A stretch of DNA of 64,000 bases. It comes from Sialis fuliginosa (Eukaryota > Arthropoda > Insecta > Megaloptera > Sialidae). The position numbers were made by a program, and so were the translations under genes. Location: positions 9,054,501 through 9,118,500 of the forward strand of contig OY540819.1 of assembly GCA_961205875.1 (NCBI GenBank), read 5' to 3'. Shown piece after piece: positions 27,072-48,708 of this stretch. Positions within the stretch are counted from its first letter, which is position 1. Each line of letters opens with the position of its first letter. The notes below the pieces were generated by a model. That model was not told the origin of the DNA. It saw only the letters and a program-made list of their open reading frames with translations, and did not search any database.

Positions 27072-27804
27072 GATAGATAAAGGGGGGGGTGGAGCGAGGC
27101 TCCTGCACTTAGGCCGCTAGGGCCCATTGTGCCCCCTTGAGGTTACCAAGACTTCATTCTTTAAACAGGTCCGTTGCTTCCGCGAAGGAAAGGATCCTGT
27201 TCAACGGTATGTCTTGAATGTATCTCGGCTCAAGAAAAGGGGAGCCAAGGTGTTTGTTCCTTATCTCAGCAAGTGCTGTGCAAATGCAAAGGACGTGTTC
27301 AGAAGTTTCCTCCTGTGATCGACATTTCCTACACTGTGGGTTAGGCGCTATGCCTATAGTGTGGAGATGACTGTTCATTCGCCCGTGACCTGTTAGGAGG
27401 CCCGTAACGATTTTAAGCTGTCTTCTGTTTAAGTTCAGAAGATATTTAGTTGACTTAGACGAGAGGCCCTTAATAAAGGATCTCGCTTGTCTAGGTCTTT
27501 GTCTAGAGGTCCAAGATTGCTGAAACCGCTCGGTTACATTGTTCCAGATCTCGTGCCTCACGTTTTTTGGGGATATTCCGAAGGCTGGTTCTGGACCTGT
27601 TAAAGGTTCATTCGCTCCAGCTACCGCTAGAGCGTCAGCTTCTTCATTACCCTTGATTCCACTATGGCCTGGTACCCATAGGATCTTCACATAGTTCTCA
27701 GTTGAGAGTTTTGTGAGTGTTTGCCGACATTCCTCAACCAATCGTGACCCTATCTCTGGAGAGATTAGGGCCTTAATGGCCGCTTGGCTGTCGGAACAAA
27801 TGTA
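27072..27804 (-). mobile_element. 5'-truncated non-LTR retrotransposon nested in the foldback element
   Basis: A 733-bp insertion in minus orientation is flanked by the perfect 14-bp duplication GGTAATAAACTATA (27058-27071 and 27805-27818). The 5' end stops inside the RNase H domain and the 3' end runs to a short ATCTATC-like tail next to a C-run. Such 5' truncation with a target duplication is the hallmark of target-primed reverse transcription. Confidence 0.92.
27154..27804 (-). pseudogene. LINE ORF2 C-terminus: RNase H domain and zinc-knuckle region
   Basis: The frame is open from the truncation point to the stop, about 216 codons. It opens ICSDSQAAIKALISPEI, whose DSQAA carries an RNase H catalytic aspartate. 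It continues with ILWVPGHSGIKGNEEADALA, containing the conserved histidine and final aspartate. Downstream come GLLTGHGRMNSHLHTIGI and the C-x2-C...H-x4-C motif CRKCRSQEETSEHVLCIC, which typically follows RNase H in I/R1/LOA-group LINEs. The upstream domains (endonuclease, reverse transcriptase) are absent because the copy is 5'-truncated. The intact frame means a recent insertion. It is not a functional gene here. Confidence 0.9.
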
Positions 27805-28093
27805 GGTAATAAACTATAATAATCTCGTTATTTTGACATGTTGGAGGTGGCAGACTTGGTGTTCACCAAACTATTTTTTTTCGATTTTCTCACCATATTA
27901 TCATATTACAATCCATTAGTCATTTTGTCCGATAAATATCTTGGCTTATTTTTCCAGTTCGCCGCCTGGAAGATTCCGCTCGAAAATGCCCCATTTTTAA
28001 GAATTTTCGCAAATAAAAAAGTTGGAAGATTCGTCAAAAAAAAGCCATTCACGAAATTTCAGAAGTATGGTAATAAATTAACAAAAGGGTCGA

Positions 28094-34162: not shown

Positions 34163-34815
34163 TTTTTTTTTTTTGTCACACGCATAACTCATGAACCACT
34201 GAACCGATATTATTGAAACTTGGTCGGATGGTTGGGTTTGGTTTGAGGACGGTCCCATTTCAAAATCATCAAAATCGTGTGTAAGGGGGAGGGGTGACAC
34301 CCCAAAATATTTCTTTTTCCAAGATATCTCAAGAACGACACATGTTACGAGAAAATTTTATAGAATATTTTTTGTAGAGCATTAAATTTCCTATAATATG
34401 GGTCTACTACGTTTGTTGTAAAATATTCCCTTACAAAGATTTATCTCAATTTATTTTTAAAATTCGTGTTTTGTTTTTCTAAATTGATATTTGATTGGAT
34501 ATATTAAATGTCATTTCGACGTTTTAAATGTCATTTTGGCGTTTTAAATGTCACTTTGACGTTTTAAATGTCATTTTGACATTTGCATAAATTTAGATTT
34601 AGATTGAAATTGTCAAAAAATTAAAAATATATGAAGAAATATTCAGGTGCGTTTTAAGAAAAATTTCGAACTAAGATTTTTTAGTAAAATTTGTATAAGT
34701 ATTAAATGGTTAACCAAAGCCAGGCAATTTATCTGAACACTATCGGTTTTAGTGAATTTAACACGAGGAAGCACTGTGCATTTACTTGGCAGATGTTTTC
34801 CTTTATGTGCATTCT
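34163..34815 (+). mobile_element. Dispersed repeat R, copy 3
   Basis: TTGTCACACGCATAACTCAT, CCACTGAACCGATATTATTG and GAAACTTGGTCGG lead into CAAGATATCTCAAGAACGAC and end at GCACTGTGCATTTACTTGGC, as in copy 1. It contains the 20-bp tandem array at 34505-34584, which copy 1 does not have. Confidence 0.65.
34505..34584. repeat. Four-copy tandem repeat of a 20-bp unit
   Basis: Four consecutive units of AAATGTCATTTCGACGTTTT differ by one or two bases each. The array is internal to repeat R copy 3 and seems to be a local expansion. Confidence 0.85.
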
Positions 34816-45158: not shown

Positions 45159-45405
45159 TAGGGGAAGTCCGGGAGACTTGCCCAGGTGGGAGAGTTGAAC
45201 CATCTTTCAAAATTCAATTTAAATTTCGCGCTAATGAAACGTTAATACTGTCATTGGTCGTGCGCGGAAGGCCAATTACAAGTATGCCGCCATTTTGTAA
45301 GATGGCTAGTTTGTTCGGCTGTCAGGGTGTGAAACGTGTTTTTGTTGCCGCGGAGTGATTTTTTATAATTTTAATAGTTTTGAGGTTACGATCGTGTTTA
45401 TTGAG

Positions 45406-45636
45406 GTACGTATTGTGTGTTACTATTATTACGTTGCCTGGTTATTGTAGTTTGACGCATGCTAAGTGTTTTTTTCTATGATTGAAGGTTTTCTCTGTGA
45501 CAAAAGTTAAATGTCAAAGTATTGGGTGCGGGAGACTTGCACCATGGCGTGTGAGGGAGACATGTTCAGTGGTTCATGTCTCCCTCTGTAGTATAAACGG
45601 TAGTTTCTTTTGATTTTTTTATATATTTTTTTGCAG
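45406..45636 (+). other. Probable 5'UTR intron of the transposase gene
   Basis: The donor GAG|GTACGT at 45405/45406 and the acceptor TATATTTTTTTGCAG ending at 45636 fit the GT-AG consensus. The first exon has no in-frame ATG, so splicing would leave the start at 45643. The intron itself contains copies of the sub-terminal motif (45530-45540, 45555-45585), so transposase binding could overlap its own leader region. Confidence 0.6.
45530..45587. promoter_or_regulatory. Internal copies of the transposon end motif
   Basis: GGGAGACTTGC at 45530-45540 repeats bases of the left terminus. GAGGGAGACATG at 45553-45564 and CATGTCTCCCTC at 45575-45586 form an inverted pair with a 10-bp spacer. At the other end the related words are GGTCAACTCTCCCC (48465-48478), GGTTCAAATGTCCC (48486-48499), GGGGAGATTTGAC (48507-48519) and GGTTCAAGTCTCCC (48684-48697). 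I infer sub-terminal transposase binding sites. Confidence 0.6.
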
Positions 45637-45642
45637 AAAACA

Positions 45643-48159
45643 ATGCCGTTTCAATATAAGTCGCCAGAAAATACACGTAAAAGGAAAAAATATACAAAAA
45701 GAGAATTAGAAAATGCCATAGATGAAGTGAAGAAAGGCGCTTCTATTAGAAAAACATCTATCAAGTATGGAATCGACAGAAGTACACTAAGACGTTATAA
45801 ATTGAATGAACAAAAAGTACATAAATTTGAAGAAAAAAACAGTCAATATAAAGAATCGCAGATATTTACAATTTCTGAGGAAAAGCTACTTGTTAAATAT
45901 TTACTGTCATGTAGTAAAATGCATTATGGCTTAACCAGAAAACAAGCAATGCAATTGGCATTTGAATTTGCAAAAGTAAATTCAAAGAAGTTTCCTGAAA
46001 GTTGGACGACGAACAACTGCGCCGGAAAAGATTGGCTTCGCGGTTTCTTTTCCAGAAATCCAGAAATAAGTCTAAGAACACCCGAAGCCACCAGCTTATC
46101 TCGAGCCACTAGTTTTAATAAAAAAAATGTCGGCGATTTTTTCACAAATTTAAAGATAGTGCGCGAGAAATATAATTTTGAGCCTCAGAATATATATAAC
46201 TGTGACGAAACCGGGTGCACGACTGTGCAAGAATGTCCAAAAGTGATAGCCAGTAAAAAGTCGAAACAGGTCGGACAAGTCACGTCTGCGGATAGAGGAA
46301 CAACTGTAACACTTTGTTTCGCCGTCAATGCGATTGGAAACGTGATACCTCCCTTCTTTATATTTCCGAGGGTTAGGTATCAAGATCATTTCGTATCTGA
46401 AGGCCCGGATGGGTCATCCGGAGACGCTTATCCAAGTGGTTGGATGACCACAAAAAGTTTTGTAAAATTTCTTGGACATTTTGCAAAATATTCTCATGCC
46501 TCTGAGAACAATCGCGTGCTCTTAATACTAGATAATCATGAGAGTCATATAAGCATTGATGCGATTAATTTTGCCAGAAATAATGGGATCACGTTGCTAA
46601 CTCTTCCCCCACACTGCAGTAATAAATTACAGCCACTTGATGTTGCAGTTTATTCCTCCTTTAAATCTCGATACAACACAGCTATGAACAACTGGATGTT
46701 ATCCAATCCAGGCAAAACAATTACAATTTATAATATTCCTGGATTCGTTAAGACAATTATGTCTCAAGCATTCAGCCAAAGCAACATATTAAGTGGATTC
46801 CAGAAAACTGGCATTCATCCGTTCAATCCAGAAGTTTTTAGTGACGACGATTTTTTGTGTTCTGCTGTCACGGATAGAGATTTGCCTCAAGAACAAGCAT
46901 CAACAAGCGCACCAATGCGTTTAGAAAGTCAGCTTGTATTCTCCGCCGAACTCGAGGAATCGTCTCAACTTGAAGAGAACGCAGCAATCGCAACTGTTTC
47001 TCTGCAGAAGTCTGAAAATAATCAGAATATTCCCGATTATGATCACAGTTCTGTTTCGCAAAAGCATCCAGCATCCCTGGCTATAGGAGTTAATGAGTTA
47101 TCGACTACGGATAATATTCCAGATATTGCTCATGGAAACTCAAACGCTACGAAATCAAAAGGAATTGTTAAAGACGTCAAATTAATTCGTGCTAGTTCGG
47201 AGCCATTACAAAACTCCAACAGATATCACGTGATCACAATACCTCTAAGAGAGCCCATTACAGGCAAACGAGCATCCTCTGTCCCGCCACAAAAAAATAT
47301 ATCTCTGGAGTCATTGAATGCTGGCCTACCAATTCAGAATAAACAAAATATTATTTTACAAAGCTCTTATTCTGCTCTTACGGGGTCAACACAGAAAAAT
47401 ACACATGACCGGTGCACTTCCTCACCAATGCAGTCTTCTTCAAACGCTAAAATAGTGACTCCAGAAATGGTGAGACCATTTCCGAGAGCGCCTCCAAGAA
47501 AAATGGCTCGGCGAGGCCGCCAGCCCGGCAAGACCAAAATATTAACAATGACACCTGAAAAGGAAAATGTCAGTAGTGAATGTCTCACTGAAACTCCAAT
47601 GAAAAGAAAGTCCAACTCTAATAATGACACATGTGATGACGATAAAAGTTCAAAAAGGAAGTTTAAGGAAACTCAACCAAATGTTATAAAGAATGATGAG
47701 ATACGAAAACAAAAGATTAATAATATTAAGAAAAGAATTTTTGAGAAAAGTGACACTGAATCAGAAAATGAAAAGTATACTAATAAAAAGACTAAGAAGA
47801 CTGAAGGAAAAACTAAAGGAAAGAAAATAATGAAAGCCGAACAAGATCCAAGACAAAAAAACGAGAAAAACAAGTACGTTCAAAAGAAAACTGGAAAAGG
47901 AAAAAAGGGTAAAAATAAGAACGATGACAGTGAAACGGAGTATGAAGACGAAGATATTCCGTACGCTGATAGTTCCACTGATAATGATTTTGATGAAAAT
48001 CCTGACATGAACGATCGTTGGTACTGCTTCGTTTGCCAAAGAGAAAAAATTATGACTATGCGTCTATGTCGTTTATGCCGTAGATATGTCCATGAGATAT
48101 GTGTAGGGCTTACCAAAGATATCAAAGATTTCATTTGTCACGAATGTGAACAGAAATAG
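45643..48159 (+). CDS. Pogo/Tigger-like DDD transposase with C-terminal PHD-type finger
   Basis: This transposase would excise and reinsert the element at TA. The start is the ATG at 45643, six bases after the acceptor; a longer frame upstream has only a TTG and lies in the intron. The 838-residue protein has a psq-type helix-turn-helix near residues 16-57 (RELENAIDEVKKGASIRKTS). A CENP-B-type second DNA-binding region lies around 74-145 (WLRGFFSRNP). The DDE core follows, with D188 (YNCDETG), D297 (LILDNHESH) and D333 (KLQPLDVAVY), a DD35D spacing. A long low-complexity linker carries an AT-hook-like ARRGRQPGK (about 621-630) and K/E-rich stretches (about 690-780). Residues 795-835 form a C4HC3 pattern: C795, C798, C809, C812, H817, C820, C832, C835. 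The frame has no stop or shift. The finger could target chromatin or aid DNA binding; this is inferred. AATAAA signals lie about 80-250 bp downstream. Confidence 0.93.
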   Translation: MPFQYKSPENTRKRKKYTKRELENAIDEVKKGASIRKTSIKYGIDRSTLRRYKLNEQKVHKFEEKNSQYKESQIFTISEEKLLVKYLLSCSKMHYGLTRKQAMQLAFEFAKVNSKKFPESWTTNNCAGKDWLRGFFSRNPEISLRTPEATSLSRATSFNKKNVGDFFTNLKIVREKYNFEPQNIYNCDETGCTTVQECPKVIASKKSKQVGQVTSADRGTTVTLCFAVNAIGNVIPPFFIFPRVRYQDHFVSEGPDGSSGDAYPSGWMTTKSFVKFLGHFAKYSHASENNRVLLILDNHESHISIDAINFARNNGITLLTLPPHCSNKLQPLDVAVYSSFKSRYNTAMNNWMLSNPGKTITIYNIPGFVKTIMSQAFSQSNILSGFQKTGIHPFNPEVFSDDDFLCSAVTDRDLPQEQASTSAPMRLESQLVFSAELEESSQLEENAAIATVSLQKSENNQNIPDYDHSSVSQKHPASLAIGVNELSTTDNIPDIAHGNSNATKSKGIVKDVKLIRASSEPLQNSNRYHVITIPLREPITGKRASSVPPQKNISLESLNAGLPIQNKQNIILQSSYSALTGSTQKNTHDRCTSSPMQSSSNAKIVTPEMVRPFPRAPPRKMARRGRQPGKTKILTMTPEKENVSSECLTETPMKRKSNSNNDTCDDDKSSKRKFKETQPNVIKNDEIRKQKINNIKKRIFEKSDTESENEKYTNKKTKKTEGKTKGKKIMKAEQDPRQKNEKNKYVQKKTGKGKKGKNKNDDSETEYEDEDIPYADSSTDNDFDENPDMNDRWYCFVCQREKIMTMRLCRLCRRYVHEICVGLTKDIKDFICHECEQK

Positions 48160-48239
48160 TTTTTAGGCTACCTTGTTGACTTAAAGTAATTATTGAGACT
48201 GATCGAAGATGCCAATTTATTAGAATAAGTTATTAGTTT

Positions 48240-48245
48240 AAATAA
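48240..48245 (+). terminator. Polyadenylation signal of the transposase gene
   Basis: AATAAA (in AAATAAAAATGTG) lies about 80 bp after the stop. A second AATAAA lies at about 48412. Both are inside the transposon, so the transcript could end before the right terminus. Confidence 0.45.
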
Positions 48246-48708
48246 AAATGTGATGAAAGATCAATAAGTCTGATTATTAAAATATTTAATTTTGTATAAC
48301 TTGATACACATATTTGAAAATTTTGTTAACATTGGAATGTTTAGAAATATTGTTAACTTTTTTTTTTTACAAGAAGTATTAGTAGTAACTTCATCTTGTG
48401 ATATTTAAGTTAATAAATTCATGATTTAAGCATAAAATGTTTTTTCCCTTTCCCAAAAATGAATGGTCAACTCTCCCCAGCCCCCGGTTCAAATGTCCCT
48501 TATGGTGGGGAGATTTGACTCATATCCCATTTTTTATTAAAATCTCTATATCTTTTTACAGTATAATGATATTGAAAAAATAATGATACAAAATTATGCC
48601 TGCATAACTAAGTTATCGCTTAAAAGCATAATCGAATCTCTAAACCCGATTTATAAGAAATTATGATGTTATAAATAAAAAGCGGTTCAAGTCTCCCGAA
48701 CTCCCCTA

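Follow-up and report, generated by a model that had tools for sequence, protein, structure and literature searches.

A young pogo-type transposon of Sialis fuliginosa with a PHD-type finger at the C-terminus of its transposase

The window analyzed here, a stretch of 64,000 nucleotides from Sialis fuliginosa (contig C11, 9054501-9118500, of an assembly of 392 Mb in 20 contigs), contains a pogo-type element of 3,546 bp at positions 45161-48706, bounded by TA on either side. We read it, with about even confidence, as an autonomous pogo-superfamily transposon, young and of the cut-and-paste kind, in which the C-terminal end of the transposase serves as a module slot: a PHD-type zinc finger or an unrelated domain occupies the same place in related families. 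Two near-identical copies of the element, the ligand pattern and PDB sequence matches of the finger, and a survey of pogo cores in the same genome carry this reading.

An intact element and its C-terminal finger

The element carries terminal inverted repeats next to a TA target-site duplication, and its inverted arms (45162-45180 and 48688-48706) are 89% complementary. The 838-codon transposase frame is the longest of the window's three open stretches that reach 130 aa; ends, duplications and uninterrupted frame are as a preliminary description of this DNA had claimed. The core is a DDE_1 domain with three aspartates whose spacing is inside the reported DDxD range, and the residues named earlier as a DDD core, D188, D297 and D333, proved correctly placed, with DD35D spacing. 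At the N-terminus, where an HTH_psq or CENP-B_N type domain is expected of pogo transposases, HTH_psq was found. A Pfam scan of the frame recovered HTH_psq and DDE_1, whereas HTH_Tnp_Tc5 and PHD remained under the Pfam cut-offs. As a member of the pogo family, for which this is established knowledge, the transposase would use its DD35D core to excise and insert the element at TA, and its N-terminal domains would bind the element ends. The main text of two pogo surveys (Gao et al. 2020, PMC7386202; Dupeyron et al. 2020, PMC7325037) describes the same TA duplications, short terminal inverted repeats, HTH_psq plus DDE_1 domains and DD35D spacing, as well as HTH_Tnp_Tc5, to which this protein has a weak match, lists HTH_psq for Fot and Fot-like transposases, and gives a range of 300-977 aa, inside which the 838 aa of this protein fall.

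Besides the window copy, a DNA search of the assembly returned two matches, one full-length at C8:7680607-7684152 and the other an 85-bp fragment at 76%. Over 3,546 bp, 5 substitutions and 2 single-base indels distinguish the two full-length copies, and both frames are open. Of the substitutions, four fall within the frame; two are silent, and two change a residue, T389A and, inside the finger, K802E (window residue given first). With about 250 bp of flank compared per side, the copies cease to align no more than 8 bp from the left end and, on the other side, at the right end itself; the flanks are unalike, and the copies occupy different sites. TA adjoins all ends of both, with one extra C before the TA at the C8 right end, a base that the window copy may have lost. 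Across the assembly, an end pattern with up to 2 mismatches found only the four ends of these two copies (its backward control gave 0 and 1 matches), and short non-autonomous derivatives sought by the same pattern were not found, although ends more than 2 mismatches away would escape it. Two near-identical copies and no relics found indicate recent transposition, and on these comparisons the element is young, present in two copies and recently transposed; its arrival from another species is possible. The element had been called intact and probably active. Intactness holds, and activity finds support only as recent mobility of two full-length copies, which are near-identical and open-framed rather than old, divergent and broken.

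PHD fingers follow a rule of ligand spacing that sets them apart from other zinc domains. The eight ligands claimed earlier for a C4HC3 finger at residues 795-835 are all present (C795, C798, C809, C812, H817, C820, C832 and C835), with the PHD-like spacing C-x2-C-x10-C-x2-C-x4-H-x2-C-x11-C-x2-C. When the finger alone was compared with Pfam, PHD was the best model, matched over positions 1-47 of 47 (21.9 bits, E 1.8e-4); the whole-protein scan gave PHD 13.4 bits (E 0.082) over the same residues, and the genome search gave 21.6 and 22.2 bits for the two copies of the element. Against the PDB, the finger alone matched 34 distinct sequences at E up to 1, headed by six ZMYND8 chains (E 3.7e-5 to 0.0019, 27.1 to 21.8 bits). 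The next protein was KDM5B (E 0.07, 16.8 bits), which leaves ZMYND8 a margin of 5 to 10 bits. Most of the remaining matches are, as we take it from their names, PHD-finger proteins; five are not PHD by name (three ribonucleases, one cystatin-domain and one HORMA-domain protein). The finger therefore aligns to solved PHD fingers rather than to nothing PHD-like, and its identity as PHD-type is supported at the sequence level.

The non-coding parts of the element hold a further repeated feature. The 14-mer GGGAGACTTGAACC, allowing up to 3 mismatches, is found at 8 places among the 1,029 bases of non-coding sequence, four per side, against a mean of 0.03 and a maximum of 1 in 200 mononucleotide shuffles of the non-coding ends, a contrast that is flattered since the 14-mer was chosen from the element itself. 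In the remaining 60,454 bases of the window it occurs once. These subterminal repeats are likely to be binding sites of the transposase.

C-terminal modules in related transposases

A profile search of the genome that scored the best candidates alone listed 100 matches to DDE_1 and, at E up to 1, 106 to PHD. Eleven of the 106 lie downstream of a same-strand DDE_1 match, at most 3 kb away, with none upstream and none on the opposite strand; two of the eleven are the element's own copies, and one, on C10, was not read. We read 49 of these 100 DDE_1 sites, with the C8 twin, L029, standing in for the window copy. Forty-four of the cores read were chosen for their DDE_1 score and length of frame, regardless of any finger, and a PHD-type finger lies downstream in 12 of the 44 (the twin is among them, and each copy of a family counts separately): L029, L036, L058, L059, L037, L038, L040, L041, L048, L060, L066 and L075. 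Within this set, one family accounts for L036, L058 and L059, and another for L037 and L038. The finger had been presented as a feature setting the element apart; that it is unique to this element is ruled out by these fingers downstream of other pogo cores. Five more loci, L076-L080, were fetched because of a PHD match, so that the overall count of 17 fingers in 49 rows is biased upward. Several labels are weak: L077 combines a partial PHD match with a core close to that of L075, L075 has a stop inside the finger, and in L037 and L038 Cys replaces His. L068, with a partial PHD match of 14 bits, was kept as having none, a group that also includes truncated loci. The three copies L036, L058 and L059 (on C1, C4 and C12) have identical cores and 654-codon open stretches in addition to their fingers, and are perhaps also young. 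Many of the DDE_1 matches crowd in C14 (about 3.3-6.7 Mb), C6 (4.5-5.3 Mb) and C1 (41-44 Mb), perhaps pericentromeric regions.

Seven families that have no finger end in another domain. A model built from these seven also matches L069, whose core is identical to that of L043, L063 (8e-12) and L070 (8e-7), which places this second module in ten of the 49 rows read (L035, L042-L046, L063, L069, L070 and L072; L065, at 0.008, was excluded). It has no significant match in Pfam or the PDB, and from the look of its sequence a Tudor- or SH3-like barrel is our guess. At no locus read did both the finger and the second-module models match strongly; the second-module matches at the finger-bearing L048 are chance-like and on its other strand (best 0.44).

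Ahead of either module, some of these proteins share a linker. We built a linker model from L043, L044, L045 and L072, which carry the second module, and L074, which carries neither, leaving out the window. Among finger rows it scored 46.6 bits in the window, 47.5 in L048, 44.7 in L079, 21.6 in L066, 21.4 in L060, 13.3 in L080 and only 5.9 in L076; elsewhere it scored 26.5 bits in L042 (second module) and 18.1 in L068. It found no match in the finger rows L036, L037, L038, L040, L041, L075, L077 and L078, nor in the second-module rows L035, L046, L063 and L070. Since the outer families have no linker match, the same linker ahead of different modules is, on these scores, a feature of one part of the tree. 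The linker had also been described as AT-hook-like. The core of an AT-hook is RGRP, which the window's RRGRQPG lacks, and this stretch belongs to the linker motif common to some relatives.

A tree of pogo cores with and without the finger was built from the cores of this one genome, and its finger rows do not form one clade. It comprises 50 rows, 49 DDE_1-type cores from the genome and one fungal-type row, and holds neither named reference subfamilies nor outgroup superfamilies. The finger label needs 7 changes on the tree, 6 of these being forced by starred branches, compared with a mean of about 14 after shuffling, and one starred clade of 13 rows is entirely without finger. A single clade of all 17 finger-labelled rows was rejected (p 2e-8). 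When the 17 finger rows were set against the 10 second-module rows, with the other 23 uncounted, at least 5 changes were required and the modules alternated, gain and loss of a module being indistinguishable on this tree. Measured by path, the window's closest neighbors on the tree are L048, which bears a finger, and L043/L069, which bear the second module (the L069 core is 51% identical).

Function and origin of the finger

To our knowledge, how most cut-and-paste transposases choose chromatin is an open question. Carried on a long charged linker, the finger would most likely tether the transposase complex to chromatin, a plausible role. Several observations weigh against a chromatin-reading PHD finger. 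The PHD scores lie below the Pfam curated cut-off of 24 bits, an E near 1e-4 is modest for a 59-residue query, and a single-sequence structure model (mean pLDDT 60.5) shows three helices and not the PHD fold, a cross-brace with two zinc ions, although it is too poor to count either way. Moreover, the finger has a net charge of +3 in the window copy and +1 in its twin, which would be unusual in a domain that binds the basic histone tail and comes closer to the DNA-binding domain of piggyBac as excerpts of PMC8086355 describe it. This last point bears on another explanation, that the finger binds the element's own DNA ends or helps to dimerise the transposase, like the cysteine-rich domain of piggyBac, with chromatin uninvolved. 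The eight subterminal repeats offer potential DNA sites for such a role, the piggyBac domain is positively charged and binds DNA (PMC8086355, excerpts), and the fingers of L078 (+7) and L040 (+3) are also basic. Nevertheless, the ligand pattern and the PDB comparison indicate PHD fingers of chromatin proteins, a DNA-binding-type domain is already present at the N-terminus, and among the eight other fingers counted the net charge spans -5 to +7, so that acidic ones (L036 -5, L080 -5, L066 -4) make a DNA-binding role common to all unlikely; we regard the explanation as rather improbable. The piggyBac analogy itself cuts both ways on chromatin targeting, because its domain binds DNA whereas related ciliate domains bind histone H3, among them that of PiggyMac, which is negatively charged (PMC8086355, excerpts). 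The finger and its alternatives might instead serve protein-protein contacts (with host factors, for stability or for escape from silencing) and not targeting; the variation of the module between related families would fit this, but we consider it quite unlikely.

Whether the window finger was inherited with its neighbors or captured separately turns on a comparison of fingers. The fingers of L036, L048, L060, L066, L079 and L080 are alike, L078 joins them via L079 and L048, and L040 pairs with L041 (50 bits). The window finger could be an inherited, fast-diverged member of its sister clade's finger, a view we hold to be evenly poised: a clade that unites the window with the six finger rows near L048 survives the test (p 0.38), and the linker scores of L048 and the window are alike. 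Against inheritance, the window finger reaches at best 15.3 bits with a pogo finger (L066) and 6.9 with L048, below its scores with ZMYND8. Control fingers behaved the other way, with best PDB and best pogo scores of 24.8 (SHPRH) and 53.7 bits for L048, 19.3 (PHF13) and 28.6 for L078, 17.0 and 49.6 for L041, and 22.9 (PHF23) and 29.8 for L066. Because the window finger alone of the five scores closer to a host-type finger than to pogo fingers, a separate capture is possible, although scores over 50 residues, each the highest among many PHD chains, give the argument little firm footing. The finger may also differ in specificity. In five of nine rows of our finger alignment (A1), tryptophans precede the third ligand by three residues and the histidine by two, at sites that we take to be the cage positions of H3K4me3 readers, and the PDB matches of the L066 finger include PHF23, KDM5B, PHF8, PHF13 and BPTF. 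Because M806 and Y815 occupy these sites in the window finger, its specificity may differ from that of the tryptophan-bearing fingers. A bolder version makes the C-terminus of this pogo lineage an exchangeable targeting slot, in which PHD-type fingers and the undescribed second domain, perhaps a barrel of Tudor or SH3 type, have repeatedly displaced one another, with a conserved linker ahead of them in one clade; the window finger would have been taken from a ZMYND8-like host gene, and related transposases might read different chromatin states. We offer it tentatively, as doubtful in full. Finally, one of the two copies might be a host gene derived from the transposon, as an uninterrupted frame and low copy number could suggest. 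Both copies have both terminal repeats beside TA in different flanks, and the in-frame changes are two silent and two replacing; with complete ends and unlike flanks on both, we reject domestication as highly improbable.

PHD fingers are already known in other transposons. The PHD finger of RAG2 has an H3K4me3 role. The RAG recombinase is transposon-derived and works with a PHD-finger protein (PMC4411706, excerpts), but there the finger is on the second protein, RAG2, and not on the transposase. Rehavkus and Ginger1-9_HM are cut-and-paste transposases with a PHD finger (PMC6446971 and PMC2836005, excerpts), but belong to other transposase superfamilies, and piggyBac and PiggyMac, which share a C-terminal zinc domain of the transposase (PMC8086355, excerpts), belong to a different superfamily as well. 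The term 'PHD' was not found in the main text of the pogo surveys PMC7325037 and PMC7386202, and among the papers that searches of the open-licence literature listed, no title or abstract opening describes a PHD-bearing pogo transposase, although collections of eukaryotic proteins may hold unremarked ones. Viral contigs, phages and plasmids yielded no relatives of the protein, core or element, 8 plasmid records at E 0.1 and above being set aside. A degenerate core pattern picked out 19 stretches in genome contigs and one contig among viral contigs (L001). In tblastn, two of these 20 loci proved to encode relatives, L001 at E 7e-25 and L003, which was then set aside, at E 3e-9; the other 18 gave nothing below E 0.06. 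L001, a pogo element labelled fungal-type by eye, likewise has a pogo-type core followed by a zinc-binding motif, but the motif is a CCHC knuckle and lies in the next open frame.

Families of one genome that share a core, in one clade also a linker, and differ in the last domain provide a ready comparison, and a young, intact element suits it: insertion maps could be set against module type. The survey also suggests that studies limited to the DDE and DNA-binding domains overlook a part that recurs among pogo transposases.

Feature positions and other observations in the window

Table 1 Features of the element and its transposase, in window positions.
Feature	Position	Strand	Basis
Left target-site duplication, TA	45159..45160	.	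sequence
Left terminal inverted repeat, GGGGAAGTCCGGGAGACTTG	45161..45180	+	sequence, end-pattern search
Subterminal 14-bp motif GGGAGACTTGAACC, two copies (45171: 3 mismatches; 45188: 1 mismatch)	45171..45201	+	
Possible leader intron, GT...AG	45406..45636	+	read from sequence alone
Two further subterminal motif copies (45530 +, 45571 -)	45530..45584	.	
Transposase frame, 838 aa, stop-free	45643..48159	+	
HTH_psq, residues 21-53	45703..45801	+	Pfam, E 1.5e-4, above cut-off
HTH_Tnp_Tc5, weak, residues 79-145	45877..46077	+	E 0.016, 15.6 bits, under cut-off 22.2
Catalytic core D188, D297, D333 (DD35D); DDE_1 residues 261-384	46204..46641	+	Pfam, E 5e-20
Linker motif, residues 600-644, common to some relatives with either C-terminal module	47440..47574	+	46.6 bits
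K/E-rich, then acidic linker, residues 645-787	47575..48003	+	
C4HC3 PHD-type finger, residues 795-835; residue 802 K in window copy, E in second copy	48025..48147	+	
Possible polyadenylation signal, AATAAA	48241..48246	+	sequence
Three subterminal motif copies (48464 -, 48486 -, 48508 +)	48464..48521	.	
Exact subterminal motif copy, overlapping the right terminal repeat	48684..48697	-	
Right terminal inverted repeat	48688..48706	-	sequence, end-pattern search
Right target-site duplication, TA	48707..48708	.	sequence

Elsewhere in the window, a 219-aa open stretch on the minus strand (27154-27813) matches RNase H (E 1.3e-7) and, weakly and under the cut-off, zf-RVT (E 0.003); it is probably the 3' part of a non-LTR retrotransposon. 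A tandem array with a 20-bp unit in 4.1 copies lies at 34504-34584.

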